Assembly (NCBI GenBank): GCA_036874045.1
Contig: CM072335.1
Coordinates: 18,111,501 to 18,175,500 of the forward strand
Direction: 5' to 3'
Length of the DNA stretch: 64,000 nucleotides
Origin: Cymodocea nodosa
Taxonomy: Eukaryota > Streptophyta > Magnoliopsida > Alismatales > Cymodoceaceae
Shown here: positions 2,704 through 26,664 of the stretch, in pieces
Position numbering within the stretch: the stretch's first letter is position 1
Layout: every line of letters begins with the position of its first letter
The notes under the pieces: model-generated
Databases searched by the model: none
What the model was told of the DNA's origin: nothing
Seen by the model: the letters and a program-made list of their open reading frames with translations, nothing else
Made by a program: the position numbers and the translations under genes

Positions 2704-3194
2704 GCGGGAAAGATTTTCTTGACAAAGTTTACAAATAACCTAAGTGCCTGTGTAATAAGTGTTTAAATAGGGTTTTTAGGCGTATAACTCAACATGAAGA
2801 GAAGTCTGGTTTAGAAATTTAAATAAATATTGAATAAAGTTTATTAGATCAAGGTACCCGAAAATATTCAAGTATAACTCGTTGAGTTAACTAACCTAAC
2901 AAGTAAAACGCTGTCTAGAGGCAGTTTTACACGTTACCTTATCTAACATAGCGTCTAGCTAGTACACTTAAAACAATTTTTGGATGCTTCCAACTGAAAC
3001 GTTCCGAAAACAACACACATGCTAAACTTAACATTTTCTTGAGAACATTGTAAACTATTTGAACATTTTGTCCTTTGAATCTAAAATAGTTTATTTGTCT
3101 TTTTAAATTATTTCATCAAGATTTTAAGAGGACATTAATTCAGATTAACTAAGATTTGTATTCTAAATTATATTAATCTGTTTTCGACATTGTT
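2704..3194. other. Non-coding leader upstream of the D ORF
   Basis: No coding potential was recognised. The segment carries a GTTGAGTTA module at 2872-2900 and a CTAACCTAAC motif. On the - strand these sit about 170 bases upstream of the D ORF, the same relative position as the module cluster upstream of the B env-position ORF. It may also contain the start of an LTR of a diverged subfamily, because a purine-tract-like sequence ends at 3195, but I could not align it with LTR A. Confidence 0.35.
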
Positions 3195-4282: not shown

Positions 4283-4884
4283 AGCAAATTATGCAGGTTT
4301 ATAACATTATAATTTTCATTGTCCTGTTGCATAACTTGTATTTTCATTGCATTTTTGTCTAATGCTTTTAATTTTGTTTCCAGATCATCTAATTTCATTG
4401 CATTCAATTTTTGATCAATTTTCTTTATGGCTTTTTCTGTTTCGTAAATTATATCCTGCTTAGGTTCTGAATATGATTCCTTATAGTTTAACTGGTTCAC
4501 TTCTTGTTGTTGACACATAAAGTTTTCCAATTTGTCCAGATTTTGCTCTATACTATGCTCCAATCTGTCATAGCTATCCCAAACTTTAGTGTCTCTCATC
4601 ATATTACACATTCTATACTGACCATCAGTTGGGTAAACTATAGGATTCTCATACTCGGCTCTATTATATTGAGGATAATTCATTTGTTGTTCATGGGATC
4701 TAACAAACTGTAGACGTCTCAATTTCAAACAATCAGAAATGTCGTGTCCTTCAGAATTGTAGAATTTACATATGCTAATTACAGGTTTTAGAAATCTTTG
4801 AGCATAAGCATATGCCATATTCTCAATTACTGAAGAAAACACACAACTCTGGCTATTAACGAAACAGCTCTAATAGTTGCTTAT
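4283..4884 (-). pseudogene. Pol leader / zinc-knuckle fragment beside LTR A
   Basis: This copy of the PBS-proximal coding segment is near-identical to 19390-20004 of element B and is cut off at 4283. It encodes a zinc-knuckle-like stretch, CKFYNSEGHDISDC, in which the expected second Cys is Tyr. That is followed by a Glu/Lys-rich coiled-coil region. Unlike the B copy it reads through in one frame: it keeps two bases near 4517 that are missing in B. PR, RT and IN are absent downstream. It is the 5' stump of a second internal region attached to LTR A. Confidence 0.6.
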
Positions 4885-4916
4885 ATCTATTCAATTCAAT
4901 ACAATTCAATTCAATT
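4885..4916. repeat. (TTGAA)n leader repeat
   Basis: A short pentanucleotide array (ATTCA/TTGAA) abuts the primer binding site. The same array occurs at the same place in the other two copies (about 20000-20031 and 26588-26640), so it is a fixed leader feature of the family. It is longest in element C. Confidence 0.8.
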
Positions 4917-4933
4917 CCCCAGCAACGGCGCCA
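4917..4933 (-). other. Primer binding site (tRNA-Asp type) after LTR A
   Basis: The + strand reads CCCCAGCAACGGCGCCA, one mismatch from the 3' end of plant tRNA-Asp (CCCCGGCAACGGCGCCA). This is the primer used by Athila-lineage elements. It lies 7 bases from the LTR A terminus at 4941. Its presence means internal sequence begins on this side of LTR A as well as on the other side. Confidence 0.85.
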
Positions 4934-4940
4934 CAAAACT

Positions 4941-7123
4941 TGTTTGTATTTTTCCCAGCACTACACTAGAAAAAACTTGGATTTGTTACTTCTATTTTTA
5001 CTTAGTTAATTTATCTTTATGTCTATTCTTTCTTTTAGAAGTAAACAAACAACCTTTAATACAATTTAGATATTAATTCCAATTAGTACTTTAACTGCAA
5101 GTGCACAGTGTCTATTGTATCAGTGTGCAAGTACAGGTTGATCCCACAGGGAATTGCTGACGAATTTAAGAACTGTTTGATTGTTAACAATTCAAAATTA
5201 TATTCAATAAGCACTCCGTTGAATTACAATTAACTCAACGAACAAAGTTCGTTGAGTTATGGCTAACTCAACGGACTAACCTCGTGGACTAAAGTTAACT
5301 CCACGAGCCTGTCTCTTCTTTATAATAATGCTATTTACAGAGGAATTCGGCCAACCATTAGGCGATTCCACAGATTGTAAATAACATCAATTAAGCTTTT
5401 TAATGCTAGTTAACATTGGGTTTATCATTAAGCAATACTAACATTTAGATGATTCAAACAGTAACCATTAAAATCTTTAAGTCTTTTGTATGAACCAATT
5501 TTAGTAAACTGTAAAATTAAAACTAACATAAAACAATTACAAAACTGATACAGATAGCATTAATCCCGATACAACACAAACAATACAACACTCAAATACA
5601 ACATACAAACAAAGATAAATTGTTTTTGATATTTTTGTTATGATGCTAACATGGAAATGGGCGAAAGGTGAAATGTAAAGTAATCTCACTTGACAGTAAA
5701 TACTTCCGACACTACTTGCAACGCGATTACACCACTGAAAATTAAACCACTAACAATTCTGTCTCCTCTCCCTATAGAATCGCGAGTCCAGAATTGCAAG
5801 ATGATCTCCTCTTCATCATATAGGCATCAACCCGAAGCCAAGGCTAAAAGCTTTACAATCTCCTGAAATTTGAGTCGGCGCTTGGTAAAAATGGCTTTCC
5901 TTCTTGCGACGCGATCACTCCTCACAGTGGTTGTCAGGCACTGTGTTTGGCTCGGAATCGACCCGACATCAGGCAAGTATCCTCATAGACCTCCGATGGT
6001 TGTTGATTATGGTGGTGATGATGGTGGTTGGTGTGATATTTTAGAGAATTGCGATGCTCATCCTCCTCTACACACACTGTCCGTCCATCGATCACACCTT
6101 CTTCTTTTTTCTTCTTTTCTTTTATATTTCTTCAGTAGTAACTGCTTCTGCTTGAATGATCAGTTGGATTTCCTTCATTCAGATCAATGGCGATGCTTCC
6201 TTCTCCTGCACGATACGTGCAAATGTGGTTTTTTCCCTTCCAACTGTCCTATTTCTACAACCGCTACAATGGCATATTAGAAAATATATAGTCCGTGGAG
6301 TTACAGATAACTCAACGGACTTTCTTCGTTGATTTAACTATAAAATACGTGCATACATTTAACTATCTGATGCTCAGGTGCATTTCGGATACTTATAAAC
6401 TTAACTATCCGATGCTCAGATGCATTTCGGATAGTTACAATTAACTCACCGATATATAACTTAAGTAAATCTACCAGATCTCGACACGTGCCAGCAGCAG
6501 TTTAATCATAAAATAACATTTCAGAGAGTTACAGGTCTAACTATCCGATGCTTAGATGCATTTTGGATATTTACAACTAACTCACTGAAAATCCACTTAA
6601 GTCACTTACCTAGAACATGACATGTGTCCTCAGCTATTTTATAAATAAAAAGAGATTTCGGAGAGTTACAGGGATAACTATCTGATGCCCAGCTGCAATT
6701 TTGGATAGTTATAGATAACTCACTGAAAGTTCACTTAAGTCATTCATTCTGGTTTCGAAACGCGTACTTCAGGAAATAATAAAATATTCTCTCAAAACAT
6801 AACTGTTCGGCAATTTAAACATAACTATCTGATACATATTCGGTCTGTTAAACATAACTGTCTGAATTTGTTCAATATATTAAACATAACTGTCCGAAAT
6901 ATCAGAAAATTCGGATACTTAAGAATTTCACAGCTTGCAACTTACTGACAGTTCATAAATGTACTAAATTAACATTAATTCCCCAAAGTTAAGCAAATTC
7001 TTCAATTAAAGCATATAATAGTGCAATTATAACATAATGGCTTAATTCTCATATGATAAGCTAAATATTATACAATTAACCATCATTTAACCGTTAACAA
7101 TATGCACTTTTTCATTCTAAACA
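4941..7123 (-). repeat. LTR A (3' LTR of element B, shared with a second internal region)
   Basis: This 2183-bp LTR starts TGTTTG and ends ...TAAACA on the + strand. It matches the interrupted LTR 20056-21498 + 28592-29338 in length and sequence. On the right it is bounded by the PPT (7124-7136); on the left by a PBS. The U5-side part (5200-5310) carries nested inverted repeats of the CCGTTGAGTTA / TAACTCAACGG type. The U3-side part (about 6340-6990) carries diverged tandem units described separately. A + strand ORF at 5870-6280, antisense to the element, recurs in the other LTR copies but has no recognisable domain. An AAATATAAAAG motif on the - strand near 6118-6128 could be the TATA box; this is unproven. 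Confidence 0.85.
6411..6811. promoter_or_regulatory. Three ~135-bp tandem U3 units with inverted repeats and ACGT/E-box cores
   Basis: Three diverged units begin near 6411, 6541 and 6677. Each contains, in order, AACTATCYGATGC...GGATA (an inverted repeat), AACTCAC[C/T]GA, ACTTAAGT, a CACGTG-like or related core, an A/T-rich stretch, and TTTCGGAGAGTTACAGG or a close variant. Tandem units of this size in U3 are typical of LTR enhancers. LTR C copies keep a single unit and have different sequence upstream. Binding factors are unknown. Confidence 0.6.
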
Positions 7124-7160
7124 CTTCCCCCATACCTAATTTTTGCTAGTCCCTTAGCAA
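7124..7160 (-). other. Polypurine tract and preceding hairpin of element B
   Basis: Read on the - strand, a hairpin (TTGCTA/TAGCAA, 7143-7160) is followed by GGTATGGGGGAAG (7124-7136), which directly abuts the LTR start at 7123. This is the expected plus-strand priming site. An equivalent sequence abuts the LTR of element C at 23446. Confidence 0.8.
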
Positions 7161-8436
7161 ACTAAGATCTAATTAATTGGTTTTTAAAAGTGCTAGAATT
7201 AATTCTTCCCCTTTCGTTTTTTCTTCTGTTTAGCATAAAAAATATATTTTATATGTTTCAGTAATCAACCTGCAAAGATATTTAGAATATATGTAAATTA
7301 CATACAAAGTATATCATCTTCATACAGGTGTTAATTATATTATCGTTTGTTCTTCTTTTCATCATCTGTCATCCTGAATTTTCCAATAAGATTTCTAGAA
7401 GAAATTTCAACAACATACGAATCATAGTACAATCAAATTCAATCTAATTAAGACAAGTAGAATAAAGAATTGAATTTCCATTAAACAACTTCAAAAGTCA
7501 ATTCCAGATTCATATTTCAGCAATTCTAGATAACAGAAAATATACTTGATTTATAAGATATCTGTATTTCACAAAACACTTGTATCTTTTCAAAACAGTA
7601 TATATATATATATATATTTTTTTTTTGATTCTTTAAAAGTTAATTTGACAAGCTTGAATCATACAAGAGCTTTCTAATGTACCCATGTAACGAGCTTTCA
7701 GTCAACAATCTCAGATCTGATTAGGATCTTAGGTTTCCAGATTTCAAGAGTCCTTTTTCAAGTCAACAATCCTTACATACCTATCTGCTCAAGTACAAAA
7801 GGCTCGTGATCAAACAAGTCAATAAACTCTCAAAATTTTCCTTTTTTTTTTTTTTTCTTTCACAAAACTAAAATGCACACACAAAACAAAACATTAATCA
7901 CATATTATATATGTATGTATTTCATTAATACAGATGAAGTAAAACACCAATCTCATATAGTCATGTTTCTATCATTTACTGAAAATATGAATCCATAACA
8001 ATAAGCTCATACTTTATCTGTAGTTTAATAAGATCTACACATAAATCATTCTACAAGTTCAATCAGTCAAATTAAATGTATCTTTCATCAAATGTGTTTT
8101 ATTTAATCTAGAATTCACATCTCAGCTCCTTCAGGACTTCAGATAATTTTCTGATTAAATATTATGTATTCTGATTTCATTTTAAAATCGTCAAACTGTT
8201 AAACTCATGAAATTCAGAAAAATCATAAGATACTATATCTAGATTTGCATAAATAATAAATTCTATAGCATCTTCTATAGCCTTCTAAATATAACATTCA
8301 AGCAGTTTATAAAAATTTTATAGTCTCAATTATCGGATAGTTACAGCAAGTTCATAAAAATTTTTAATTTCCTCAAAACTTTGCAGTACCATTTTAATTC
8401 CTTTAATTAAGAAACTTACATGGTTGTTACTTTAAT
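7161..8436 (-). other. 3' untranslated region of element B
   Basis: Non-coding and AT-rich, with poly-T runs at about 7610-7625 and 7839-7857. Its left part aligns to 23480-24400 in element C and to 3195-4250 beside LTR A. No ORF longer than noise is conserved among the three copies. Confidence 0.6.
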
Positions 8437-8480
8437 TACCTCCCCCCCTATGCCTACATTTTGCATTGTCCTCAATGTAA
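8437..8480 (-). other. Second hairpin + G-tract, PPT-like
   Basis: On the - strand a small hairpin (CATTG/CAATG, 8465-8478) is followed by a purine run with seven G (8439-8448). Layout and spacing copy the true PPT at 7124-7160. It follows the F-box ORF by about 420 bases. It could be an old PPT left inside the element or a processing signal repeated after a coding block. Confidence 0.45.
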
Positions 8481-8897
8481 AAGGTTTGACAATAAATACA
8501 GTAATTATAGCAGGCATGAATAAAGTTTTGTTTGATTTAAAATTCAGGATAAGTAATTGGTTACATATCTTGTTCCATTTGTATCTCTTGCATATTCCGA
8601 TTTTTGATTCTGAAAAACTTTTCATTCCCAAATAAACACAGAATATAAAACAAAATAACATTTAACAGATATTAATAAATCAATGTCTTGTGTAGAACCT
8701 AGGCTTCTATGCCTTTGGTGGCTCACAAGCAAGCTAGTTGGTTTCCTAGAATAGATACCAACAAACTGGATTGATATTTTGTTTTGTTTGTTTATTTTTT
8801 TTTTCTATAAAATGAACATGAAAACTTCAAAATTCCTTTTTTTTTCTTTCTAAAAATAAATGCAGAATACACAACATTAAACACACAAAATCACACC

Positions 8898-10031
8898 TTA
8901 AGAACATGATTGAAAAGTAGAAACAAATGGAATAAATGTATCAGTCCAAGCAAACTTTTTAGGCATAGTTCTTCTTGCTATTAATTCTGTTTTAATGCAG
9001 TTCTTGTTCCTTTTTAATTTGTAAACATGCAATATATTATAAATTCCAAATATAAGTGTATTACCATTAATGATATGTAATGTAGAAAGGGATCCTTTTT
9101 GGTTCCAAGGTAATGTAGCAGTTTCTATTTCTACATCTATTTCAATATACTCCTCTTCCCACTTCCATTCATTCATGTCTTCCATAATCCATATTTGAAA
9201 TTTCATCAGTTCATCCCACCATCTTATCAGACATAAAGTAGGATCATCTTCTTCATTATACCACATTCTTATTTGAATTTCATTAAATTCTGCAGATGGT
9301 GGTGTAGCTATTTCACTCGGTACAGGTAAAATTTCTATATAATCATCATAATTGTCTATGCTCACTATGTATAAATCAGATCCATATGCTAATGGTATCT
9401 CCGTGAATAAATAGATATATCCATCGAGTACGACATGTGTTTGGTTAATTAATGATTTCTGTCCTAGATATATTATAATGTTTTCATTCCAAAATCTATT
9501 TAGAAAATTATACACACTTAAGCGTAAATCTTCACCCCAATTTCCTGTAGGTCTCCAATAATATAATTTTTCAGGAATTGTAAAATTTTTATCAGAAAAT
9601 ATTAAAGCTGACCCACAATTTTCAGTTGGTGCTTCAAATATATTAGGTCTTCCTATATTCCATTCTTCTCTTGTTATAGGATTTTGTATCAAAATATCAG
9701 GTAATATTAAACTTGCATACCTTGGTCTCGTCTTGTATATGATTAATCCTTCATCTATTCCCATAATATTATTTATTCCTTCTAATGCATTGGGTGGAAT
9801 TCCAGTAGTTTCTTCCATAGCCAGATATTCATGGGTATTTGAACTACGATTAAATGACCTCCATATGAATCCATCTCTAATCTTAGTCATTTTTGCAGCT
9901 TGTAGTCCTTGAAAATATTTTTCTTCAATACAGTCTTTAATTTCCTTTGATACACAACACAACCTGCACAAATCTTTAGCTAACAAGTTACTTAATACTT
10001 CTCTTAGTGCATCCAACGGTAATTACATCAT
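8898..10031 (-). pseudogene. Intronless F-box protein gene carried inside element B (nonsense at codon 3)
   Basis: F-box proteins are the substrate-choosing subunits of SCF ubiquitin ligases and bind SKP1. From an ATG at 10031 the frame reads Met-Met-stop and then LPLDALREVLSNLLAKDLC, a good F-box start followed by the RLCCVSKEIKD helix. The frame is then open for 372 codons to 8898. After the F-box come segments typical of F-box-associated domains: GIDEGLIIYKTRP and LIQNPITREEW near residues 80-120, then Trp/Tyr-rich beta-type sequence (WYNEEDDPTLCLIRWWDE). The length fits plant F-box/FBA proteins. It lies on the element's coding strand between gag and the PPT, so it belongs to the retroelement. 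An inverted-repeat module lies 75-135 bases upstream. The single TAA is the only break I found. Translation could only restart downstream, losing the first F-box residues. Target unknown. Confidence 0.7.
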
Positions 10032-10225
10032 TTCCATTTGTCGATTCTGTAAAACACAAACAAAAATTTAGCAGAGAAAAAAATTAACATAACTACTGCA
10101 CACCCTCGTGGAGTTAAGGCATAACTCAACGGACAAAGTTCGTTGAGTTAAAAATTAACTCTATGATACTATTAACTAAAAATAAAACATATATACATAC
10201 AGATAGTTGCTTCAGATATTCTGCT
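10032..10225 (-). promoter_or_regulatory. Inverted-repeat module between gag and the F-box ORF
   Basis: Positions 10104-10166 contain CTCGTGGAGTTA, TAACTCAACGG, TTCGTTGAGTTA and AATTAACTC in tight succession. This is the same set found in the LTRs (for example 5205-5310). In coding orientation it sits just upstream of the F-box ORF. It may be an internal promoter, a hairpin in the RNA, or a relic of an older LTR. Confidence 0.5.
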
Positions 10226-11569
10226 TCATTTAGCTGCCCTCCTAGAAGAGGTAACAATTTCATTAACCATTCTATTGACAGGATTAGGTATAGCTTGTAT
10301 TGGCAATCCTCTAGTAGGTCTAACTTCCATTGGTTCCTTCTGTCTAAGTGATGTATTTCTATTCTGATTTTGAATTGCAGCATTTCCAAATATAAATTCT
10401 AGACGATTGTTTACTTGTTGGATTATCTTTTCTAATTTCTCTATTCTAGCTCCATGTTCAATTAATACTTCATAACTTATGTTCTTCTCATTTATATTTT
10501 CTCCTCCCTAGAAATTGTTGTTTCTCCAAGATAAATTCGGGTGATTTCTCCAATTAGGATTATAAGAATTTCCCAAGTTATCTCTCTCGTTTCTAGCATA
10601 AATAATATCTAAGTCATTTATGTTTGTATTCTTTTCTGCTAGCTTTTGATTTAATGATAACTCTTCTATTTTCTTTGTTAATTCATTTAATTTCACCTCA
10701 AGCATAGTATTGGAATCTATTTCATGCATTCCTCTTGGTAATATTATTTTATCTGCAATAACTTCAGCCGAATTTTCCCACTGTGCAGTTCTTTTTGCAA
10801 AATTTTCTAAATATGCCCATGCTTCTTCACTACATAATTTTAAAAATCCATTTTGACAAGTAGATTCTAATAAAGATTTCGTTGAAACATCTATGCCTTC
10901 ATAAATTATACCTATTAATTGTGCTTTACTCATTGCATGATATGGACATTGAGTTAGTAAATCTTTAAATCTTTCAAAATATTTCCAGAATGATTCACCC
11001 TATTTTTAGCTACACATTAATATTTCTTTCTTATTTTTAATAGTTCAATGTGTTGGATAATATTTTTCCAGAAAAACAGAGTAAAATTCAGTCCATGTAG
11101 AAATTGAATCAGGCGATAGAGTATATAACCATCTCTTAGCTATATCTTTTAAAGAAAAATGGATATATCTATGTTTAATAGCATCTATACTCATGTTCGG
11201 CATTTTCATCATTTGACAAACTTCGTTAAATTCTCTAAGGAAATAATAGGCATCCTCTCTTTCTAATCCATGAAAATGTGACAATTGACTAATGTAATTA
11301 GATTTCAGTTCAAACCTATCTCCCTCAAAGTTTGGCAATCGAATACATGAAGGTTCATCAATTAATTTAGGATACAGAATTTCCCCTAATGGTTTTTCTA
11401 CTAGAGCAACCATCTCTACGTTCTCTTTTAAAGAAAAGTTAGCTACACCCCAAAGAATTTCGTTAAATTTCAGTTCAGAAAATTTTTCAGTACTCTTCTG
11501 CAATGAAAATTCCTAGGTAGGTGTTCTTACTAATCGTTTAGTGCTTAGAGAACGAGTCCATGTGCTCAT
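10226..11569 (-). pseudogene. gag: Athila-type gag (capsid) ORF of element B, placed downstream of pol
   Basis: Gag forms the virus-like particle. The frame runs from ATG 11569 (MSTWTRSLS) to TGA 10226-10228, 447 codons. The capsid domain of the retrotransposon-gag family lies at about residues 75-210, with RLPNFEGDRFELKS, AYYFLREFNEVC and TEFYSVFLEKYYPTH. Near residue 340 is NPNWRNHPNLSWRNNN, a hallmark of Athila Gag. No CCHC zinc knuckle is present here; the only knuckle-like sequence is in the pol ORF. In-frame stops lie near 11513, 11045, 11000, 10994 and 10508. Element C (24386-25066) is intact at several of these sites and broken at a different one, so the parent family was open. Its place after pol and the env-position ORF is unusual, since gag normally comes first. 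Confidence 0.8.
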
Positions 11570-11620
11570 AAATAAATAGCAGAAGATTAATTACATACCA
11601 ATCTGAAGCTTTCCATTCTA

Positions 11621-11890
11621 TCAATATTTGTTGTCAAATGAAGTTGAATCAGCTACTTCTCCTTCTAGTTCCTCCAACGTATTCTCCTTTCTTTTAAAAG
11701 TGCTGGTAACTCGTAAATAACATTCTGTTTCATATATATACTGTGCATCCATAAAGTGAATAAATCTCGTTGCAAGAACGTGTCTTGCAACGTGCATCGT
11801 GGTTCTTGTTTTTATGGGTACGTCTACCACTACTAATTTCAAATTTGGGTAACCGCTAAACCGATGAAGTTTCGTTCGTGGTTAAAAAAA
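11621..11890 (-). CDS. Small ORF upstream of gag, conserved in B and C
   Basis: About 75-90 codons without a stop, ending about 50 bases before the gag ATG. It has no in-frame ATG at its start, so initiation is unclear; it could be a spliced exon. The central part, MHVARHVLATRFIHFMDAQ, is the same in element C (25115-25339). No known domain is seen. The B and C copies differ at many amino acids, so selection is not evident. Confidence 0.3.
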
Positions 11891-11906
11891 TAACCGTTCT
11901 GCTTAA

Positions 11907-12078
11907 TCCACGAACTAACCTCGTTGAGTTACAAAAAACTCAACAGAATACAGTCGGTTACTGTTGCTAACTCTACGGACTAACTTCGTTGAGTTACAGG
12001 TAACTCAACGGAGTGACCTTATATTACTAACCTCGTGGAGTTACGGTTAACTCGACGAACTTATTTCGTTGAGTTAAC
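11907..12078 (-). promoter_or_regulatory. Inverted-repeat module upstream of gag
   Basis: This dense cluster holds CTCGTTGAGTTAC, TAACTCAACGG, CTCGTGGAGTTACGG and TTCGTTGAGTTAAC motifs in both orientations. It matches the LTR U5-side cluster and recurs at 25408-25582 in element C, also just upstream of the small ORF and gag. Its conserved placement suggests a function tied to gag expression. Confidence 0.5.
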
Positions 12079-12452
12079 ACTTAGCAACTTCTAAGCTTCA
12101 CTCTCGTAAGTGTTTCTATTCTGTTTTTTTTTATTTTCTCTGTCATTTTGCTAACTGTAATAAAGTTAAATCTATGTCATTAATGCCTCATTTTGATTAA
12201 AATACATTTAAATCTGAATTACCTTATAACATGTAGAAATTTTTAAGCAGTTATCCTATCATTCAGCAAATTGTAAATGTGTTACATATTCATTCATAAA
12301 GTTCCACAAATTACATAATATTCAATAAATTCCATTCATTTCACATCCAAACATGTATGAAAATTGCATCTGAAAAATTATATTCATTAATATGAATCAA
12401 TTACATTACAAGTACATCATACAATTTTACACAAGTAGACGAACAATACAAT
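12079..12452. other. Spacer between env-position ORF and gag
   Basis: AT-rich, no ORF. It aligns with 25600-26015 of element C, where it is kept although the env-position ORF is deleted. Confidence 0.5.
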
Positions 12453-14699
12453 TTAATCTCTATGCCTAAGTTCATCTACTTCCTTCTGGAGTTTTTCTAA
12501 TTGTTGCTTTAATTGATTTATCCTTTCTACTGCTCCCGAAATTCCTTGAGAAGGTACAACTAATTCTACAGCTACAAAATTCCTATATTCTTTCACTGAA
12601 ATGGTTCTAGATCTGATCCTTTTTGATGTCCATTTAGTGAAATCGATGCAGTCCACCATCAGCAGTGGAATCAAATCTCCATAAAATAATTTCTTCTTCA
12701 CTATTTTCAGCTTGGAGATAAAAACTGCAGACCAATTTATTTGAATCTTATTTACAACTGCATATGTGGCCCATTTGACAAATTGACTTAATTCTATGTC
12801 ATGGCCTTGTCGTTGATAGACATTCTTAATCAGAATGTTAGCTACCATGTGTGCTTTACCATTTAAATGCTTAAATCTATTTAATAATGGCACATCAGGA
12901 TTGATAGCTAAACAATCCTTAATTTGCTGCTCAGTCCATTCAACTGCAGTTGTATCTTCCAAAATTTTTGTTCCTTTATTCTTTAAACCAAATATGTTGT
13001 GGAGAAGCTCTGGTGTTAACTGTACATCAGCTTCCTCCACGTTTGAAATTAATCCTCCTCTTTCTCTCAAATTTGCATAGAAACAGGGCACTAAATTTTC
13101 ATATACTGTATGCCCTCTTTCTTGAGATATAAATTGCAGTAGACCTTGGAATTCAAATAGATCTTTGATTTCTTGCATTCCATCCCAATTTACTGGTCTA
13201 CTGTAAATAATATTGTAACCCCTTATTTCTTGATATTTAGTATAAGCTTCCTGACTACTAAAGTGTACATTCAAATTTGTTGTTTCAGTCGGGTTAGGAA
13301 GGTGACTTTGTTGCTCTAGAGGGGTTTGTACTTGATCTTCCTCTAGCATAGGCTGCATTTGGACATTCTCTTCAGATTCCTTAATTTTTGCTTCTGCTTC
13401 TGTCTATGGCGGTGAGCCGGAGAACTCTCCACTCTTTCTTGAATTCTTTCCATGATTTGTTGAAGAGTTTCTTGTTCTTTAGTGGAATCTGTGAAATTAT
13501 TTTTGTCCAAATGGCTTCTTTTAGCCTCTTTATTTTCTGCTCTTTCTTGCTTCTCCTGACTACAAATCTGTTCTGTTACTGTTCTTTCTGATTCTGTAAC
13601 AAATTGGGATGAAGTCACAGGCAATTCAGTTTCTACCCTAATTTCTGTTTCTTCTTATACAGGCTGTAGACTAATTTCAGCTTGATTTTGTTCTTTTCTT
13701 TGCTCCTCCTGCTCCTCCTCAGAATCGGATAGCAGGTTAATAAAAATCTGCTCCACAGGCCCTGTAAAAATTGGTACTTCAGATTTAATTTCTTCATATT
13801 CAGGCACTTTTTCTTTTCCTTTCTTTTTTTTTGATTAGTTGTGCCTGTTCTTCCTCTTCATCTTCTAAAATTAAATCTACAAAAATAGGCTCTACAGGCC
13901 TTCGAGCCACAGGTACTGGCTCTTCCTGTTTAATTCTTCCAATAATTGCTGATCTCAAAGGACCAGCTTCATCTCCTTTTGCAGCAGGTTTGGTAACAGT
14001 TCTGGTAGTAACTTCTTAATGCTGTTCCACTTTAATTTTATATTGGACTTTCAACTTTTCTACAACTCTCTTTTTGTACAGTGCATCAAACACCAGGTAT
14101 GCTTTAGCCACTACCAAATCTTCTGATTCTCCTTGGTTCTTCCCAACTTGAACCAGTTCTACAAATTCTATTATTTCTTCTTCAATCGAAGGCCCCATCA
14201 TTTCTGCTCGTGCCAACGATTTAAATGGTGGAACTGAAGGTCCAGGCTGCTGCTCCTTAGGAACAGGTCTTTCAGTAGTTGGTTCCTCCCGTTCTTCAGT
14301 TGCCTCTTCTTCATTTTCTTTCCTTTCTTGCTCCCAGATCGCCCATTTAGCTCGTCTACAGATTCGTCTTTTGAACAAGAGCCGGGACTTACGTTGGATT
14401 AATTCTAGGGCAACCTCATTACTTGGCCTTATTTGTCTTTCCTTGCTTACAGCAATTTCAGTTGCTACTCTTATACGTGTTTCCATTATTTGATGTATTT
14501 GTATACCCATATCTACTAAATCTCTTCTAAATTTGAAAAGTTCTGATTCTACCTTCTGTAGCTCTTTCTCTCTTGTCGTATTTCTGATCTTCTACCGCGT
14601 GTGCCACTCTTCTGATTCCTTCAGAAATTCTGATGTATCAACAACCTCTTCCCAGAATTCAGGCGTCATCTTCCTCATCATGGAGTTACACAACAGCAT
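12453..14699 (-). pseudogene. Env-position ORF of element B (plant transposon-protein domain), broken
   Basis: It starts at ATG 14699 (MLLCNSMMRKMTPEFWEE) and ends at 12453. The first 500 codons are charged and low in complexity, with Glu/Lys/Gln-rich coiled-coil stretches and short Pro-rich parts. The C-terminal 300 residues (13358-12453) form a folded-looking domain with FEFQGL, IQINW and KLFYGD, matching the element D ORF, and end in a leucine-rich coiled coil (INQLKQQLEKLQKEVDELR). No signal peptide or transmembrane helix is visible, so 'env' refers to position only. Breaks: stop near 14594, stop at 14016-14018, stop near 13660, a probable slip in the A-run near 13830, and a compensating shift near 13400. 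Element C has deleted almost the whole ORF. Confidence 0.65.
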
Positions 14700-15281
14700 G
14701 GAATCGCTCTGATTTTTACTGTTCTAGATTTTAAATGATTTACCGGATAATGCCCCTAAAACCCTAGGTTTTAGTTTAAATAAGCCCTAAGTTTAGGCAG
14801 GTAATCGGGTCATTTCCCAAACCAACTATTACTATTTTATCCGAGGTCTTAGCTACAGTACTCCATTGAGTTATAGTTAACTCAACGGAATAAGCTTGTT
14901 GACTAACTCAAGACTTAATGGAGTAAGCTCGTTGAGTTAAGTGTAACTCAACGAACTTCCCGTACAAGCAAATATAATAATAAAAATATTACAGAGAATA
15001 GTTTTTTTTTTTTTTTATCGGTTTAATCGATAATATGTTTCTGTCAGACCTAAATATTTTTTATTTATAATTTCTTTTCTTTCAGTTGAACTGATACTTT
15101 GTTTCAGTAAAACCTATATTTTTTTCTGAAAATTAATATACATTTTTTTAATGTTCCGGTCATACCGATGGATCCAATCGGTTGAACCACAACTATTTTT
15201 ATGCTTTATATATATTTTTAATGTGTGTGTGTGTGTGTTTTTTTTTTTTAAATATATATAAACATAAAAACTGATTTCTTA
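14700..15281 (-). other. Pol-to-env spacer with inverted-repeat module, poly-T and (GT)n
   Basis: Positions 14861-14957 repeat the LTR-type module (CTCCATTGAGTTA, TAACTCAACGG, CTCGTTGAGTTAA, TAACTCAACGAAC) upstream of the env-position ORF. The rest is AT-rich, with poly-T at 15003-15016 and 15239-15249 and (GT)n at about 15222-15238. It also holds short CGGTTGAACC/CGGTTTAAT palindromic motifs, which are duplicated as a 132-bp unit in element C. Confidence 0.55.
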
Positions 15282-18200
15282 CTAAGTAAAGCTCGAGTAG
15301 TCCTTTACTTTGACTTCTTCTATAATTCCAAAGGAGCTTTTTGGTGTTTTCAGAATAGGTTTAAGTCTTTGTCCATTTACTTTAAATATATTTTGATTTT
15401 TAGGATTTTCAATTTCAATAGCTCTATAAGGATAAACATTTTGAACTATGTAACGTCCTGCCCATCTAGATCTTAATTTTCTTAGATGGTTATGGAGTCT
15501 AGCCATATAAAGATATACTTCTTGTCCTATTTCAAAGCTTTTAGGAATAATTTTTCTATTATGCTAGAATTTGATTTTCTCTTTTTCTCTTAGAGTCTTC
15601 GAATAAGCTTCATTTCTAAATTCTTCTAATTCAATTAGTTGCATTTTCCTATTTTCAGTAGCTTGATTTAAATTAGTGTTTAGAGTTTTTAATGCCCAAT
15701 AAGCTTTATGTCCTATTTCAGCAGGTAAATGACAACTTTTTCCATATACTAACCTAAAAGGTGACATACCTAAGCTCGTTTTATAAGTAGTTCTATAAGC
15801 CCAAAGTGCATCTATCAATCTATTAGCCCAATCTGTTCTAGTAGGATTTACCACTTTTTCTAAGATTAATTTAATTTGTTTGTTTGCACTTTCTACTTGT
15901 CCACTTGTTTGTGGATGATATGATGTTGCAATTTTGTGATTTACTCCATACTTCTTCATTAAGGCTTCAAAACTTCTATTACAGAAATGAGTTCCTCTAT
16001 CACTGATAATAGCTTTAGGTATTCCAAATCTGGCAAATATATTTATTTTTATAAATTGTATTACCACTTTGTTATCATTAGTTTTTGTAGGAATAGCTTC
16101 TATCCATTTAGATACATAATCCACCCCCAACAATATGTAATTAAATTGATTAGACATAGGAAATGGACCCATAAAATCTATTCCCCACACATCAAAGATT
16201 TCAACCTCAACAATAGGATTAAGAGGCATCATATTCCTCTTTGATATTCTTCCTATTTGTTGACATCTTAAACAACTTAAGCAATATTTATGAGCATCTT
16301 TGAATAGTGTTGGCCAATAAAACCCACATTGCAGAATTTTTGCAGCAGTTTTCCTTGAACCAAAATGTCCTCCACAAGCTTGGTCATGACAGAAAGACAA
16401 TATGCTCGAATATTCAGTTTCTGGAACACACCTCCTTAAAACCAGATCAGGACATTTCTTAAGTAAGTATGGGTCTTCCCAATAGTAATATTTTACTCTT
16501 GAGAAAATCAATTTCTTATCTTGTCTATTCCAATCCTTAGGTCTTAAACCAGTAACTAAATAATTAACTATGTCTGCATACCAAAGCATTGTTTTGATGG
16601 TCATTAATTGTTCATCAGGAAAGTTATCCTTAATTTCAATATTTGATTTTTCTATTTGTAATCTTGATAAATGATCTACTACTACATTTTCACAACCTTT
16701 TTTATCTTTAATTTCTAGATCAAATTCTTGCAATAATAATATCCATCGGATCAATCTAGGTTTAGTTTCTTTTTTCTTTATTAGATGTTTTAGAGCTGAA
16801 TGATCCATGTATATTATTATTTTAGCTCCAATCAGATATGATCTAAACTTTTCTAAAGCCAACACAACAGCTAATAATTCTTTTTCAGTAGTTGTGTAAT
16901 TAACTTGAGCATCATTTAAGGTTTTGCTTGCATAATAAATCACTCTAGGAGATTTTTCTATCTTCTGTCCTAACACTGCTCCTACAGCAAAATCAGAAGC
17001 ATCGCAAATTAATTCAAATGGATGGTTCCAATCAGGTGCTTGAATTATAGGAGTTGAAATTAAGCTAGTCTTAAGTCTGAAAAATGCTTCCTTGCAATTT
17101 TTATCAAAGTTAAATAGAACTTCTTTTAATAGATTAGTTAAAGGTCTAGCTATCTTGTTAAAGTCCTTAATAAATCTTCTATAAAAACCAGCATGTCCTA
17201 GAAATGATCTAATATCTTTTACTGATTTAGGTTCTAGTAGATTAGATATTACTTCTATTTTAGCTTTATCTACTTCCAACCCTTTTTTAGAAACAACATG
17301 CCCTAAGACTATTCCTTATTTAACCATGAAGTGACATTTTTCCCAATTTAAAACCAAATTTTTTTCCACATAGCGTTTTAATATTTGGTCTAAATTGCTT
17401 AAACACACTTCATATGAGTTGCCATATATAGTAAAATCATCCATAAATATTTCTAAAAAATCTTCAATCATTCCAGTAAATATGCCCTGCACACACCTTT
17501 GAAAGGTAGCTGGCGCATTGCATAATCCGAATGGCATTCTTTTAAAAGCATAAGTTCCATTAGGACAGGTGAAAGTTGTTTTCTCTTGATCCTCTAATGC
17601 TACTGGAATTTGATTATACCCTGAATACCCGTGTAGGAAACAAAAATATTCTTGCCTTGCTAATCTTTCCAACATTTGATCTATAAAAGGTAAGGGAAAA
17701 TGATTTTTCCTAGTCATAGCATTCAGCTTTCTATAGTCTGTACATACTCTCCAGCCTAATTGAATTCTAGTAGGTATCAAGTCTTGACTTTCATTCCTAA
17801 TAACTGTTAATCCTAATTTCTTGGGAACTACATGGATTGGACTAACCTACGAGCTATCAGAAATCGGATAAATTATATCATTATCTAACCATTTAACTAT
17901 TTCCTTCCTGACTACTTCTTTAAGGTTTGGATTTAATCTCCTCTCAGGAATTCTAACAGGTGTAGCATTCTCTTATAAATATATGTGGTGACAGCATAAA
18001 GTTGAACTTAACCCTTTTATATCAGTTATAGTCCATCCTATTGCTTCTTTATAACTTTTTACTACATCTTTTAATTTAGCAATTTGATTCTCTTTTAAAT
18101 CTGAAGCAATAATGATTGGACAGGTTCGTTTATCTTCCAGAAATATATAGGTTAATTCAAGAGGTAAATGTTTTAATTCTAAATGCTGCCCATTAGAAGC

Positions 18201-20004
18201 TAGAGCTCCTAATTGAACATCATCATTTTTTAAATTAATTTCTTCCCGATCTCCTTCTATATTTATGCTTTCACTTTCTTCTAAAGTTTCAGAATTGATT
18301 TGCCTATTTAATTCTTCTTGAATCACATCATCTAACATATCTCCTTCATCCTCTAAAAAGTCTATGGTATGTAAGGACATTTCTAACTCCTCAAACCTTT
18401 CTGGTTTGAAAATATTTAATTGAGTATCCTCATTACCATATGCTAACTTCATTACTCTAGTTTTACAATTTATAACAGCTCCTGATGTTGCTAAAAATGG
18501 CCTTCTCAAAATTAAAGAAGTATCACTATTTTTATGCTTAATTTGTTGGGAATCTAAAATTACAATATCAATAGGATATATAAAATTCTTGATTTTAATT
18601 AAGACATCCTCTATTTTTCCTCTAGGGTATCTTATACTTCTATCAGCTAATTGAATAACCGTACTAGTAGGAGTTAAGCCTTCTAATCCTAAGGATGCAA
18701 ATATATCACTTGACATAACATTTATACCTGCACTAAAGTCTATTAAGGTTCTTTCTAGAATGGTATTTCCTATGGTGCATGATATAACAGGGATTCTAGG
18801 ATCAGATAACTTTTTAGGAATTTGTGGTAGAAATAGGGAACTACTTTGCTCAACTAAAAAGACATTTCTAAGAACTTTTCGCTCTCTTTTCTTAGTACAC
18901 CTATCCTTCAGAAATTTAGCACAAGGTGGCATATTCTGCAATAAATCTAACAAAAGAATGTTAACTTGTACTTTTTCAAAAATTTCTCTGATTTTCTCTT
19001 GTTTTTCAGGAATTATTTGTTGTAATCTTTCAAGATAAGGTGCTAAAGATTTTGATTTCAAAGACTCTTTTTCTTTCAGTTGATTTGTTTGATCATTTTT
19101 AGCTTCAATTGTAGATTCAGATTGTTGTTCAGTGATTTTTAGATTTTCAACTATTACATTTTCATTATCATTTTGATTTTTACTCTTGTCCACTTTCATA
19201 TCATTTTCATTTTGAGTTCTTGGTGGTATATCAGTTCCAGATCTTAATGTTACACATACATCTTCCAGATTTTCATTACTTTCATGATGTTTTTGTATAT
19301 CATTTTCGTGATTATGATCTTCAATTGTTTTTAGTTTTAAAGTGCATTCTTTAAATTCTCTTACATTAGTGTTTTCTATTTGTTGTATATTTTGCAAATT
19401 ATGCAGGTTTATAACATTATAATTTTCATTGTCCTGTTGCATAACTTGTATTTTCATTGCATTTTTGTCTAACACTTTTAATTTTGTTTCCAGATCATCT
19501 AATTTCATTACATTCAATTTTTGATCAATTTTCTTTATGCCTTTTTCAATTTCGTAAATTATATCCTGCTTAGATTTTGAATATGATTCCTTATAGTTTA
19601 ACTGGTTGACTTCTTGTTGTTGACACAAAGTTTTCCAATTTGTCCAGATTTTGCTCTATACTATGCTCTAGTCTGTCATAACTATTCCAAACTTCAGTGT
19701 CTCTCATCATATTACACATTCTATACTGACCATCAGTTGGGTAAACTATAGGATTCTCATACTCGGCTCTATTATATTGAGGATAATTCATTTGTTGTTC
19801 ATGGGATCTAACAATTTGTAGACGTCTCAATTTCAAACAATCAGAAATGTCGTGTCCTTCAGAATTGTAGAATTTACATATGCTAATTATAGGTTTCAGA
19901 AATCTTTGAGCATAAGCATATGTCATATTCTCAATTACAGAAGAAAACACACAACTTTGGCTATTAAAACGAAACAGCTCTAACAGTTGCTTATATCTAT
20001 TCAA
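15282..20004 (-). pseudogene. pol: Pol polyprotein of Athila-like element B (PR-RT-RNase H-IN), broken
   Basis: Domains in coding order: zinc-knuckle-like CKFYNSEGHDISDC (about 19838-19880; second Cys is Tyr); aspartic protease with LIDFSAGINVM at 18726-18740, where DLGAS would be expected; reverse transcriptase with YRKLN, MPFGLCNAPATFQR and FMDDFTIYG (17425-17452); RNase H with [12 protein letters not shown]; integrase with an intact HHCC zinc finger (about 16250-16395), catalytic DFMG, SDRGTHF and QVESANKQ, and the lineage signature FKVNGQRLKPIL at the C-terminus. Breaks: a 2-bp deletion near 19622 relative to 4517, and stops near 17970, 17853, 17316 and 15564. At least two of these replace Trp. 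The PBS lies only about 30 bases upstream, leaving no room for a capsid gag at the usual place. Confidence 0.9.
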
Positions 20005-20031
20005 TTCAATTCAAAAAAATTCAATTCAATT

Positions 20032-20048
20032 CCCCAGCAATAGCGCCA
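20032..20048 (-). other. Primer binding site of element B
   Basis: The + strand reads CCCCAGCAATAGCGCCA, matching the tRNA-Asp 3' end with three mismatches, more decayed than the other two copies. A (TTGAA)n leader follows in coding orientation. Confidence 0.8.
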
Positions 20049-20055
20049 TAAAACT

Positions 20056-21498
20056 TGTTTGTGTTTTTCCCAACACTACACTAGAAAAAACTTGGATTTG
20101 TTACTTCTATTTTTACTTAGTTAATTTATCTTTATGTCTATTCTTTCTTTTAGAAGTAAACAAACAACCTTTAATACAATTTAGATATTAATTCCAATTT
20201 GTACTTTAACTACAAGTGCACAGTGTTTATTGTATCAGTGTGCAAGTACAGGTCGATCCCACAAGGAATTGCTGACGAATTTAAGAACTGTTTGATTGTT
20301 AACAATTCAAAATTATATTCAATAAGCACTCCGTTGAATTACAGTTAACTCAACGGACAAAGTTCGTTGAGTTATGGCTAACTCAACGAACTAACCTCGT
20401 GGACTAAAATTAACTCCACGTGCCTGTCTCTTCCTTATAATATTGCTATTTACAAAGGAATTCGGCCAACCATTGGGCGATTCCATAGATTGTAAATAAC
20501 ATCAATTAAGCTTTTTAATGCTAGTTAACATTGAGTTTATCATTAAGCAATACTAACATTCAAATGATTCAAACAGTAACCATTAAAATCTTTAAGTCTT
20601 TTGTACGAACCAATTTCAGTAAACTGTAAAATTAAAACTAACATAAAATAATCACAAAATTGATACAGATAGCATTAATCACGATACAACACAAACAATA
20701 CAACACTGAAATACAACATACAAACAAAGATAAATTGTTTTTGGTATTTTTGTTGTGATGCTAACATGGAAATGGGCGAAAGGTGAAATGTAAAGTAATA
20801 TCACTTGATAGTAAATACTTCTGACACTACTTGCAACGCGATTACACCACTGAAAATTAAACCACTTACAATTCCTTCTCCTCTCTCTATAGAATCGCGA
20901 GTCTAGAATTGCAAGATGATCTCCTCTTTAGCATACAGGCATCAACCCAAAGCCAAGGCTAAAAGCTTTACAATCTCTTGAAATATGAGTCGGCGCTCGG
21001 TGAAAATGGCTTTCCTTCCCGCGACGCGATCACTCCTCACAGTGGTTGTCAGACACTGTGTTTGGCTCGGAATTGACCCGACATCAGGCAAGTATCCTCA
21101 TAGACCTCCGATGGTTATTGATTATGGTAGTGACAATGGTGATGATGGTGGTTGCTGTGGTACTTCAGAGAATTACGACGCTCATCCTCCTCTGCACACA
21201 ATATCCGTCCATCGATCACACCTTCTTCTTTTTTCTTCTTTTCTTTTATATTTCTTCAGTAGTAACTGCTTCTGCTTGAATGATAGGTTGGATTTCCTTC
21301 ATTCAGATCAACGGTGATGCTTCCTTCTCCTACGTGATACATGTAGACATAGCTTTTTTCCCTTCCAACTATCTTGTTTCTACAACCGCTACAATGGCAT
21401 ATTAGAAAATATATAGTCCGTGAAGTTACAGATAACTCAACGGACTTTCTTCGTTGATTTAACTATAAAACACGTGCATACATTTAACTATCCGATGC
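20056..21498 (-). repeat. 5' LTR of element B, first part (interrupted by element C)
   Basis: It begins TGTTTGTG and aligns along its length with LTR A (4941-6390). It stops at CCGATGC, where element C begins. The missing remainder is found at 28592-29338. Together the two parts give 2190 bp, matching the 2183 bp of LTR A. Confidence 0.9.
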
Positions 21499-23445
21499 TG
21501 TTTGGGTTTTCCCAACACTACACTAGAAAAACTTGGATTTGTTACTTCTATTTTTACTTAGTTAATTTATCTTTATGCCTATTCTTTCTTTTAAAAGTAA
21601 ACAAACAACCTTTAATACAATTTAGATATTAATTCCAATTTGTACATTAACTGCAAGTGCACAGTGTCTATTGTATCAGTGTGCAAGTACAGGTCAATCC
21701 CACAAGGAATTGCTGACGAATTTAGGAAATGTTTGATTGTGAACAATTCAAATTTATATTCAATAAGCACTCCGTTGAGTTACAGTTAACTCAACGGACT
21801 AAGTTCGTTGAGTTATGGCTAACTCAACAGACTATCCTCGTGTACTTAAGTTAACTCCACGAGCCTGTCTCTTCTTTATAATACTACTATTTATAGAGTA
21901 ATTCGGCCAACCATTGGGCGATTCCACAGATTGTAAATAACATCAATTAAGCTTTTTAATGCTAGTTAACATTGGATTTATCATTAAGCAATACTAACAT
22001 TCAGATAATTCAAACAGTCACTATTAAAATCTTTAAGTTTTTTGTACGAACCAATTTCAGTAAACTGTAAAATTAAAACTAACATAAAACAATCATAAAA
22101 CTAATATAGATAACCTTAATCACGATACAACACAAACAATACAACACTTAAATACAACATACAAACAAAGATAAATTATTTTTGGTATTTTTGTTTTGAT
22201 GTGAACATGGAAATGGGCGAAAGGTGAAATGTAAAGTAATCTCACTTGACAGTAAATACTTCCGACACTACTTGCAATGCGATTACACCACTGAAAATTA
22301 AACCACTTACAATTCTATCTCCTCTCTCTATAGAATCGCGAGTCCAGAATTGCAAGATGATCTCCTCTTTAACATACAGGCATCAACCCAAAGCCAAGGC
22401 TAAAAGCTTTACGATCTCCTGAAATATGAGTCGATGCTTGGTGAAAATGTCTTCCCTTCCCGCAACGCGATCACTCCTCACAATGGTTGTCAGGCACTGT
22501 GTTTGGCTCGGAATCGACCCGACATCAGGCAAATATCCTCACAGACCTCCGATGATTGGTGATTATGGTGGTGATAATGATGGTTGGTGTGATACTTCGG
22601 AGAATCGCCGATACTGTCTGCAGAAAGCTCGGTGCTCCTCCTCTATATACACTGTCGTCCATCGATCACACTTTCTTCTTTTTTTCTTCTTTTCTTTTAT
22701 ATTTCTTCAGTAGTAACTGCTTCTGCTTGAATGATCGGTTGGATTTCCTTCCTTTAGATCAACGGCGATGATTTCTTCTCCGTGCGCGATTGAATTCCTG
22801 CGTGATACGTGCAAACGTGGTTTTTCCTTCCAACTGTCTGTTCCTGCAACCGCTATAGTGGCATTTTGGAAAATAACTATAAAATACATGCAATAAAGAA
22901 ATAAGCCGCTAACCTAATGCATTACCTTAGTGTATATTCATGTAACTCAACGCGTACAGTTATGCTAACTTAACGAGTTATAACTTAAGTAAATCTACCA
23001 GATCTCGACACGTGTCAGCAGCAGTTTAAACATAAAATAATATTTCGGAGAGTTACAGGTATAACTATCCGATGCTCAGATGCATTTTCGGATAGTTACA
23101 GCTAACTCCCCTAAAATTCACTTAAGACATTCATTCTGGTTTCGACACATGTACATTTGGAAATAATAAAATATTCTCTCTAAACATAACTGTTCGGCAA
23201 TTTAAACATAACTATCTGAAATATCAGAAAATTCGGATACTTAAGAATTTCATAGCCTGCAACTTACCGACAGTTCATAAATGTACTAAATTAACATTAA
23301 TTCCCCAAAATTAAGTAGATTCTTCAATTAAAGCATATAATAGTGCAATTATAACATAATGGCTTAATTCTCATATGATAAGCTAAATATTATGCAATTA
23401 ATCATTATTTAACCGTTAATAATATGCACTTTTTTATTCTAAACA
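21499..23445 (-). repeat. 3' LTR of element C
   Basis: 1947 bp, TG...CA. It shares U5-side sequence with LTR A but has a different central part, near 22880-22980, with CTAACCTAA and AACTCAACGCG motifs. Compared with the partner LTR it keeps a stretch near 23190-23215 that the partner has lost between direct repeats of AAACATAACT. Confidence 0.9.
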
Positions 23446-23458
23446 CTTCCCCCATACC
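23446..23458 (-). other. Polypurine tract of element C
   Basis: On the - strand GGTATGGGGGAAG directly abuts the LTR start at 23445, identical to the tract in B. Confidence 0.85.
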
Positions 23459-24400
23459 TAAATTTTGCTAGTCCATTAGCAACTTAAGATCTAATTAATT
23501 TGTCTTTCAAAAAGTGCTCGAATTAATTCTTCCCCTTTTGTTTTTTTTCTTCTGTTCAGCATAAACATATATTCTGTATGTTTCAGTAATCAACCTGCAA
23601 AGATATTTAGAATATATATAAATTACATACAAAGTATATCATCTTCATATCGGTGTTAATTATATTATCGTTTGTTCTTCTTTTCATCATCTATAATCCT
23701 GAATTTTCCAATAAGATTTTTAGAAGAAATTTCAACAACATACGAATCAAAATACAATTTAATTCAATATGATTAAGACAAGTAGAATAAAGAATTGTAT
23801 CTCCATTAAACAACTTCAAAAGTCAATTCCAGATTCATATTTCAGCAATTCTAGATAACAGAAAATATACTCGATTCATAAGATATCTGTATTTCACAAA
23901 ACACTTGTATCTTTTCAGAACAGTATATGTTTTTTTTTTTTTTTGTACTTTAAAAGTTAATTTGACATGCTTGAATCATACAAGAGCTTTCTAATGTACC
24001 CATGTAACGAGCTTTTAGTCAACAATCCCAGATCTGATCAGGATCTTAGGTTGCCAGATTTTCAGAGTCCTTCTTCAGGTCAACAATCCTTACATACAAG
24101 TCAATAAACTCTCAAAGTTTTTTTTTTTTTTTTCTAAAAATAAATGCACATACAAAACAAAGCATTAATCACATACTGTATATGCACATATTTCATTAAT
24201 ACAAATGTAGTAAAACACCAATCTCATATAATCCTGCTTCTATCATTTACTAAAAATTTGAATCCTTAACAATAAGCTCATACTTTATCTGTAGTTTAAT
24301 AAGATCTACACATAAATCATTCTACAAGTTCAATCAGTCAAAGTAAATATATCTTTCATCATATGTGTTTTATTTAATCTAGAATTCACATCTCAGCTCC
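23459..24400 (-). other. 3' UTR of element C
   Basis: Non-coding; aligns with 7137-8125 of element B. Near 24400 it is joined directly to the middle of gag, the scar of the third internal deletion. Confidence 0.7.
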
Positions 24401-25066
24401 TTCAGTACGTATTAATTGTGCTTTACTCATTACATGGTGTGGACATTGAGTCAGTAAATCTTTAAATCTTTCAAAATATTTCCAGAATGATTCACCCTGT
24501 TTTTGGCTACACATTAATATTTCTTTCTTCTTTTTAATCGTTTGATGTGTTGGATAGTATTTTTCTAGAAAAACAGAGCAAAATTCAGTCCATGTAGAAA
24601 TTGAATCAGGCGACAGAGTATATAACCATCTCTTAGCTGTATCTTTTAAAGCAAAAGGGATATATCTAAGTTTAATAGCATCTATACTCATGTTCGGCAT
24701 TCTCATCATTTAACAAACTTCGTTAAATTCTCTAAGGAAATAATAGGCATCATCTCTTTCTAATCCATGAAAATGTGGCAATTGACTAATATAATTAGAT
24801 TTCAGTTCAAACCTATCTCCCTCAAAGTTTGGCAATCGAATACATGAAGGTTCATCAATTAATTCAGGATACAGAATCTCTCCTAATGGTTTTTCTACTA
24901 GAGCAATCATCTCTACGTTCTTTTTTAAAGAAAGGTTAGCTACACCCCAATGAATTTCGTTAAAGTTCAGCTCAGAAAATTTTTCAGTACTCCTCTACAA
25001 TGAAAATTCCTAGGTAGGTGTTCTTACTAATTGATTAGTGCTTAGAGAATGAGTCCATGTGCTCAT
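24401..25066 (-). pseudogene. gag: Truncated gag of element C
   Basis: The frame starts at ATG 25066 and covers the N-terminal part and most of the capsid domain (LPNFEGDRFELKS, WLYTLSPDSISTWTEF). It runs into 3' UTR sequence at the deletion joint near 24400, so the NPNWRNHPNLSWRN region is missing. In-frame stops lie near 25014 and at 24710-24712 (after NEVC). Where B is broken just after YYPTH, C is open, which shows independent decay of one parent frame. Confidence 0.75.
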
Positions 25067-25114
25067 AGATAAATAACAGAAGATTAATTACATACCAATC
25101 TGAAGCTTTACATT

Positions 25115-25390
25115 CTATAAATATTTGTTGTCGGATGAAGTTGAATCAGCTGCTTCTCCTTCCAGTTCCTCCAACGCTTTCTCCTTTCTTTTAAAAGTGC
25201 TGGTAACTCGTAAATAACATTCTGTTTCATATATATACTGTGCATCCATAAAGTGAATAAATCTCGTTGCAAGAACGTGTCTTGCAACGTGCATCGTGTT
25301 TCCTATTTTTATGGGTATGTGTACCACTACTAATTTCAAATTTTGGTAACCGCTAAACCGACGAAGTTTCGTTTGTGGTTAAAAGAATAA
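25115..25390 (-). CDS. Small ORF upstream of gag in element C
   Basis: Counterpart of 11621-11890 with the same length and order relative to gag. It has several amino-acid changes and no stop. No domain is recognised. Confidence 0.3.
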
Positions 25391-25407
25391 CTGTTCTGCT
25401 TAATCCA

Positions 25408-26587: not shown

Positions 26588-26640
26588 ACTCAATTCAATT
26601 CAATTCAATTCACTTCGACTCAATTCAATTCAATTCAATT

Positions 26641-26657: not shown

Positions 26658-26664
26658 TAAAACT

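Follow-up and report, generated by a model that had tools for sequence, protein, structure and literature searches.

Must gag come first in a retroelement with long terminal repeats (LTRs)? In such elements gag normally stands first and pol is reached from it, an arrangement that ties the amounts of capsid and enzymes to each other. The question is raised by a 64,000-nucleotide stretch of the Cymodocea nodosa genome (the window, to which all our DNA comparisons refer) that holds an Athila-like element, here called B. Gag comes first in the Athila relatives that have been described; in B it comes last. The observations below establish the gene order of B, a pol head without capsid, a gag without zinc knuckle, repeats in the gaps between genes, and an order older than the insertions of B and of a second element, C. 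As an explanation we propose that a capsid-less Athila lineage captured a gag and expresses it from a subgenomic RNA of its own, a proposal for which we find the case evenly balanced.

Gene order of element B

All coding of the elements described here lies on the minus strand. Read in that direction, B runs from LTR and primer-binding site (PBS) through a pol without capsid, an open reading frame (ORF) at the env position, a capsid-type gag and an F-box ORF to the polypurine tract and the second LTR, with an internal part of 12,932 bases (Table 1). An initial annotation, made from the letters of the sequence, had given the same order from pol onward, and the ORF and Pfam positions agree with it. 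Asp-type PBSs were found at 20048 in B, at 26657 in C and at 4933 in a further copy, A, each with at most four mismatches to a tRNA-Asp pattern. The pol ORF of B opens with an ATG at 19926; RVT_1 follows at 17846-17316, and RNase H and integrase at 17315-15564, continuing in another frame to 15282. An ORF at the env position follows pol, with a sub-threshold match to PF20167 (score 23.5, cut-off 45).

Two pieces of the B gag matched the Pfam capsid family (E = 7e-6 and 2e-4), and the gag matched one from Tasmannia at E = 3.5e-64. These values, together with the repeat simulations reported below, rule out a chance origin of the gag and repeat signals. The gag had been annotated as self-contained; it does possess its own ATG and stop, but the copy in B carries four internal stops. 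Because pol and the env-position ORF are interrupted as well, we regard B as a dead copy. The F-box ORF (8898-10037), a possible captured host gene, is far less damaged than pol, env or gag. Scans of the window with Rfam (gathering threshold) and ARAGORN found nothing.

Division of Gag functions

We aligned the 3′ gag with six Athila-type gags. It contains the capsid but no knuckle, continues with an NPNWRNHPN stretch and a coiled-coil end, and stops where longer proteins enter TLRSG and the protease. The pol head in turn carries the knuckle region, a spacer of its own and TLRSG. Judged from these alignments, Gag functions are divided between two ORFs that complement each other on the knuckle, as had been suggested when the locus was annotated. 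The knuckle-like head of pol described at that time is indeed where it was placed (19878-19837 in B), and the gag has no such region; the motif is, however, degenerate in both A and B (C-X2-Y-X4-H-X4-C), and Pfam, with E values up to 5 admitted, did not call it a knuckle.

A knuckle-only pol head and a knuckle-less capsid gag look as if one gag had been split in two, which would suit an internal relocation, with the gag of this very element transferred from its 5′ end to its 3′ part. Yet the 3′ gag is not simply the missing front part: it extends beyond the knuckle region into the NPNWRNHPN stretch and the coiled-coil end. Since it holds parts from both sides of the knuckle, it argues against a simple cut of one gag.

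The order predates two insertions

Element C is nested in the 5′ LTR of B and flanked by a 5-bp target duplication, GATGC (21494-21498 and 28587-28591); we therefore regard it as a clean insertion and, as first annotated, a separate one. Its pieces correspond to B 20055-19996, 15224-14844, 12502-10909 and 8137-7124, in the same order. C thus lacks pol, most of env, the C terminus of gag and the F-box ORF, and it keeps the env tail, gag and 3′ untranslated region (UTR) in order. Over the PBS-side LTR (1337-1340 bases), the Kimura two-parameter distance (K2P) between B and C was 0.081-0.089, compared with 0.057-0.061 within the B LTR pair and 0.051 within the C pair. Because the distance between the elements exceeds those within them, C is no recent daughter of B, and the order predates both insertions. 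The claim that the order is not damage unique to B is borne out by these distances and by the order retained in C; B and C may still descend from one rearranged ancestor.

A one-off rearrangement, a circular permutation of a single copy or an assembly error could in principle produce such a locus, given that we have a single window in which all copies are damaged. We consider this very improbable: the order is common to B and C, whose LTRs differ and whose nesting is marked by the clean GATGC duplication. Circular permutation of one copy is further disfavoured by the interval between env and gag, which has neither a primer site nor an LTR match (self-BLAST, 1e-10) and in which the repeats described below are the sole LTR-like sequence.

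Capsid and protease have different relatives

We built a capsid tree from B and 18 hand-picked members of the 51 capsid-matching proteins, and a protease tree from B and 17 hand-picked members of the 239 protease-matching proteins. In the capsid tree the B gag grouped with P0001, the Tasmannia lanceolata protein, and P0002 (support 100/98); Tasmannia is also the nearest named gag, at 52% identity in the capsid. In the protease tree B grouped with P0123 (97/92) and then P0139 (91/80), and the grouping of B with P0001, chosen after the capsid tree had been seen, was rejected (approximately unbiased test, p-AU 0.003). A tree of 232 protease rows, made by a quick method, recovered the clade of B, P0123 and P0139 with support 98. 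Among the 44 proteins that match both the capsid and the protease of B, 43 are closer in the protease; P0001 alone shows the reverse (capsid 52%, protease 42%).

The two protease relatives are capsid-less metagenome proteins. In P0123 (JGI source; 523 amino acids on a 2210-bp contig) 19 residues lead up to a canonical knuckle, which starts at residue 20, and Pfam finds no capsid; P0139 (759 amino acids on a 2871-bp contig) has neither a capsid nor a Pfam knuckle. The protease-site motif AG[VI]NVM occurs in B and in two of the 246 fetched proteins, namely these two. Scans of IMG/VR with P0123, the window's protease ORF, P0002 and the RNase H-integrase ORF returned no relative in any of the four cases. 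The reverse transcriptase (RT) of B is 73% identical to P0018 and P0020.

The disagreement between the capsid tree and the protease tree makes the gag look like a capture from another Athila lineage, not like a gene that moved within this one. The case for capture comes from these trees: with few rows and long branches, they suggest that the gag was probably added from outside to a capsid-less branch. The annotation had implied a gag placed elsewhere within its own lineage, a view that the disagreement of the trees does not favour.

Several results weigh against capture. When P0123 and P0139 were left out of the protease set (12 rows), the grouping of B with P0001 was not rejected (p-AU 0.183), a result that also favours relocation. 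In the 232-row tree the three longest terminal branches belong to B, P0123 and P0139, and the RT tree gave no support for a clade of B and P0139. P0123 and P0139 themselves are short metagenome contigs known from protein sequence, and the protease match of P0001 spans 140 of 214 residues. Relocation nevertheless has to meet the conflict between the capsid and protease trees, and we judge it improbable.

Palindromic repeats stand before the downstream genes

Arrays are formed in the window by a palindrome, GTTGAGTTA-N4-TAACTCAAC, often at a spacing of 33 bases. A strict scan found 22 units, whereas 100 first-order simulations gave 0.42 on average and never more than 3. All six strict units in the internal part of B fall in gaps between genes (two between pol and env, three between env and gag, one between gag and the F-box ORF), and these three gaps make up about 1823 of its 12,932 bases. 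The remaining strict units lie in LTRs, in two of these gaps that C retains and, in one case, in a neighbouring copia LTR region. Around the env-position ORF of a diverged relative, E, half-sites lie before and a loose unit behind, both of which the strict scan misses. As RNA, five arrays folded with z scores of -9.7, -7.3, -5.5, -3.3 and -5.3, with 0, 0, 0, 1 and 0 of 200 shuffles as stable.

In the 5′ LTR of C an array follows a TATA box (Table 1), and at the corresponding place the 3′ LTR of B carries CTGTAAATAG; the LTR array in C begins at about the position where a transcript would start. Because copies of the LTR repeat precede env, gag and the F-box ORF, we propose that these three are expressed separately. 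The arrays may work at the DNA level, as factor sites or a promoter, or at the RNA level, as hairpins in a leader. An 85-base module of the Athila LTR (~22900-23000) recurs in what we presume to be the LTR region of the copia element (33376-34134); the local score of this match is 78, and 60 shuffles gave at most 40. Compared with the array between env and gag, the copia LTR region scored 50 (maximum 31 in 60 shuffles); with the pol-env and F-box arrays it scored 32 and 38, above their own shuffles but short of the 40 reached by the top-scoring of 30 control pieces of B. Motifs shared with an unrelated copia element favour a DNA role for the repeats, and promoter parts seem to be shared across superfamilies. 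Several further short motifs are common to the copia LTR region and the Athila LTR.

The annotation had proposed that gag is made from a separate promoter or a spliced RNA. The repeat copies before each downstream ORF fit separate expression, which for gag may run through its own promoter or through splicing. A sequence resembling a 3′ splice site ends at 10047, before the F-box ATG, and ranked 9th of 153 by a simple score. A splice site directly before the pol-head ATG in A was dropped as a candidate, as B has no AG there.

A proposed history and its rivals

The proposal can be set out as follows. In an Athila-type Ty3 lineage, capsid would have disappeared from the pol ORF, leaving the nucleocapsid end as its only share of Gag. 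Recombination with an ordinary Athila element would have brought in a gag, which later lost its knuckle and which, as a separate gene downstream of the env-position ORF and ahead of the 3′ LTR, would provide the capsid. The LTR would drive the genomic RNA and the message for pol; subgenomic RNAs, either initiated near the arrays or spliced, would serve env, gag and the F-box ORF; and capsid made from the 3′ gag would join the nucleocapsid carried on Pol in assembly. The mode of expression, and the assembly of particles from two separately made Gag parts, are the steps that we infer. In a fuller and more tentative version, about which we have distinct doubts, an Athila-type lineage would have turned into a multi-promoter retroelement in which pol, env, gag and F-box are separate transcription units behind repeat copies, with a captured capsid and a nucleocapsid on the Pol head.

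Further observations weigh against the proposal, in addition to the results set out against capture above. The candidate leader intron before gag is weak evidence, because the internal part of B holds 14 donor-like strings and the intron's acceptor falls outside the 25 best of 153 acceptor-like sites; the splice and TATA readings were made by eye. The missing WRNHPN-like stretch is no special mark, because 9 of 29 knuckle-bearing proteins lack it as well. On a 243-base piece of U3 (the unique 3′ region of the LTR) and on the env-gag stretch, the B-C K2P was only 0.057, which may reflect recombination. Finally, the substitutions between the gags of B and C fall 10/7/11 on the three codon positions, a distribution that gives no indication of selection on gag since the two elements separated.

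This lack of codon-position bias also speaks for a non-autonomous lineage whose 3′ gag is an unused passenger, picked up once, while intact Athila elements supply Gag in trans. The breaks or truncation seen in each of B, C and A and the different histories of capsid and protease also suit such a lineage, and an excerpt of PMC11963269 describes Retand clusters that have no GAG domain. We think it rather unlikely, however, and other features speak against a passenger. In the 168 gag codons common to B and C there are three stops in B and one in C, none at the same codon, so the source gag was open across this overlap; moreover, the 3′ gag lacks exactly the knuckle region that is present on the pol head, and it sits behind repeats that have been kept.

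If the capture proposal is true, a Ty3 lineage with a 3′ capsid gene, a nucleocapsid on Pol and repeats before each gene would show that the gag-first order is not required. The locus would then allow one to ask how capsid, enzymes and RNA find each other, and would be a tangible example of capsid replacement from a related element.

Neighbouring copies and genomic context

The LTR at 4941-7123 had been annotated for B and is indeed its 3′ LTR, with the correction that it is shared: it is followed directly by the second PBS and the pol head of copy A (4940-4284, 96% to B). This B/A tandem could have been made by unequal recombination. A relative of the 3′ UTR lies at 3204-3998 (71% to B 8100-7269), between the pol head of A and the env-position ORF of E. 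On the other side, the 5′ LTR of B adjoins a Ty1/copia element that is broken off in its integrase domain at 29344 and whose other half lies outside the window; because of this junction, B appears to have inserted into the copia element. The sole ordinary host gene that we noticed is represented by plus-strand ORFs at 57400-60850 that resemble exons of a TRAPP subunit, which we take to be TRS120-like.

Table 1. Positions of element B, its neighbours and associated features in the window
Feature	Coordinates	Strand	Remarks
Diverged relative E	1..2889	-	Repeat half-sites 2785-2889; env-position ORF ~2681-631 (weak PF20167, interrupted); loose unit ~25-57
Copy A: PBS and capsid-less pol head	4284..4940	-	96% to B
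B 3′ LTR, also 5′ LTR of copy A	4941..7123	-	Palindromic array ~5218-5304
B polypurine tract	7124..7136	-	3′ LTR from 7123
B F-box ORF, PF00646	8898..10037	-	379 codons, one internal stop
Palindromic array 3, gag/F-box gap	10108..10160	-	One strict and one looser unit; fold of 10095-10165, z -3.3
B capsid-type gag, PF03732 (Retrotrans_gag)	10226..11413	-	ATG 11413, stop 10226; no zinc knuckle; four internal stops
Candidate 101-nt leader intron before gag	11498..11598	-	GTATGT...TTGCAG in B, GTATGT...TTGTAG in C; by eye, ends checked; weak
Palindromic array 2, env/gag gap	11923..12079	-	Three strict units; kept in C ~25420-25580; fold of 11932-12078, z -5.5
B env-position ORF	12453..14681	-	Interrupted; weak PF20167 match
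Palindromic array 1, pol/env gap	14865..14956	-	Two strict units; RNA fold z -7.3
B pol ORF without capsid	15282..19926	-	Degenerate knuckle, protease, RT, RNase H, integrase; frameshifts and stops
B PBS, tRNA-Asp type	20031..20048	-	TGGCGCTATTGCTGGGGA; pattern scan
B 5′ LTR, PBS side	20056..21498	-	Ends in one GATGC copy; match to 4941-6374, K2P 0.057
Element C, nested in B 5′ LTR	21499..28586	-	LTRs 26665-28586 and 21499-23445, pair K2P 0.051; GATGC on both sides
TATA box in C 5′ LTR	27052..27061	-	CTATAAATAG; 32 nt ahead of palindromic array (from 27028 downward)
B 5′ LTR, U3 side	28592..29338	-	Cut by C insertion; match to 6375-7123, K2P 0.061

Comparison with known systems

With its capsid at 11413-10226 and a pol head without capsid, B is, by sequence, Athila-like and not a standard Athila element. 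It has the tRNA-Asp PBS of Athila; what follows the PBS directly is not the gag with capsid and knuckle that precedes the protease in Athila. No RT row that we fetched is named Athila, and we use the lineage name on the strength of the PBS and the layout. In TR-GAG elements gag is the only coding domain, whereas B has RT, RNase H and integrase, and C has only part of gag, as a result of deletion. Nor is B a gag-less non-autonomous element, as it contains a capsid ORF, which in C is truncated. Among the literature matches listed, no title or abstract start named a plant element with gag after pol.

The comparisons that follow refer to excerpts of the cited papers. Calypso and Diaspora use a tRNA-Asp primer (PMC1142308), and B shares with Athila, Calypso and Diaspora the tRNA-Asp site and the gag, RT and integrase domains, with an env-position ORF in Athila and Calypso (PMC1142308). 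Its LTR of 2.2 kb is within their range of 1.5-2.5 kb (PMC1142308). Diaspora, however, has gag, knuckle and pol in one ORF with gag first (PMC1142308), whereas in B pol opens with the knuckle region and the capsid has an ORF of its own beyond the env position.

The repeats have their closest parallel here in Sireviruses, in which palindromic LTR motifs near the TATA box recur 5′ of env, as in B (PMC2829016); in HOPIE and Inga, the palindromes 5′ of env have been taken as support for an internal env promoter (PMC2829016). Sireviruses differ in being Ty1/copia elements with another motif, which lies upstream of the TATA box (PMC2829016). The array of B and C lies downstream of the LTR TATA box, and, unlike in Sireviruses, copies also stand before gag and the F-box ORF. 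The gene23 of maize Grande resembles the downstream genes of B as an extra gene between pol and the 3′ LTR, in Grande with a promoter of its own (PMC7264820); the additional ORFs in that excerpt are antisense or env-like, and none is a gag as in B. In foamy viruses, as proposed for B, Gag and Pol are made separately and meet at assembly (PMC7828637), with the difference that there it is Pol, not Gag, that is made from a spliced RNA.

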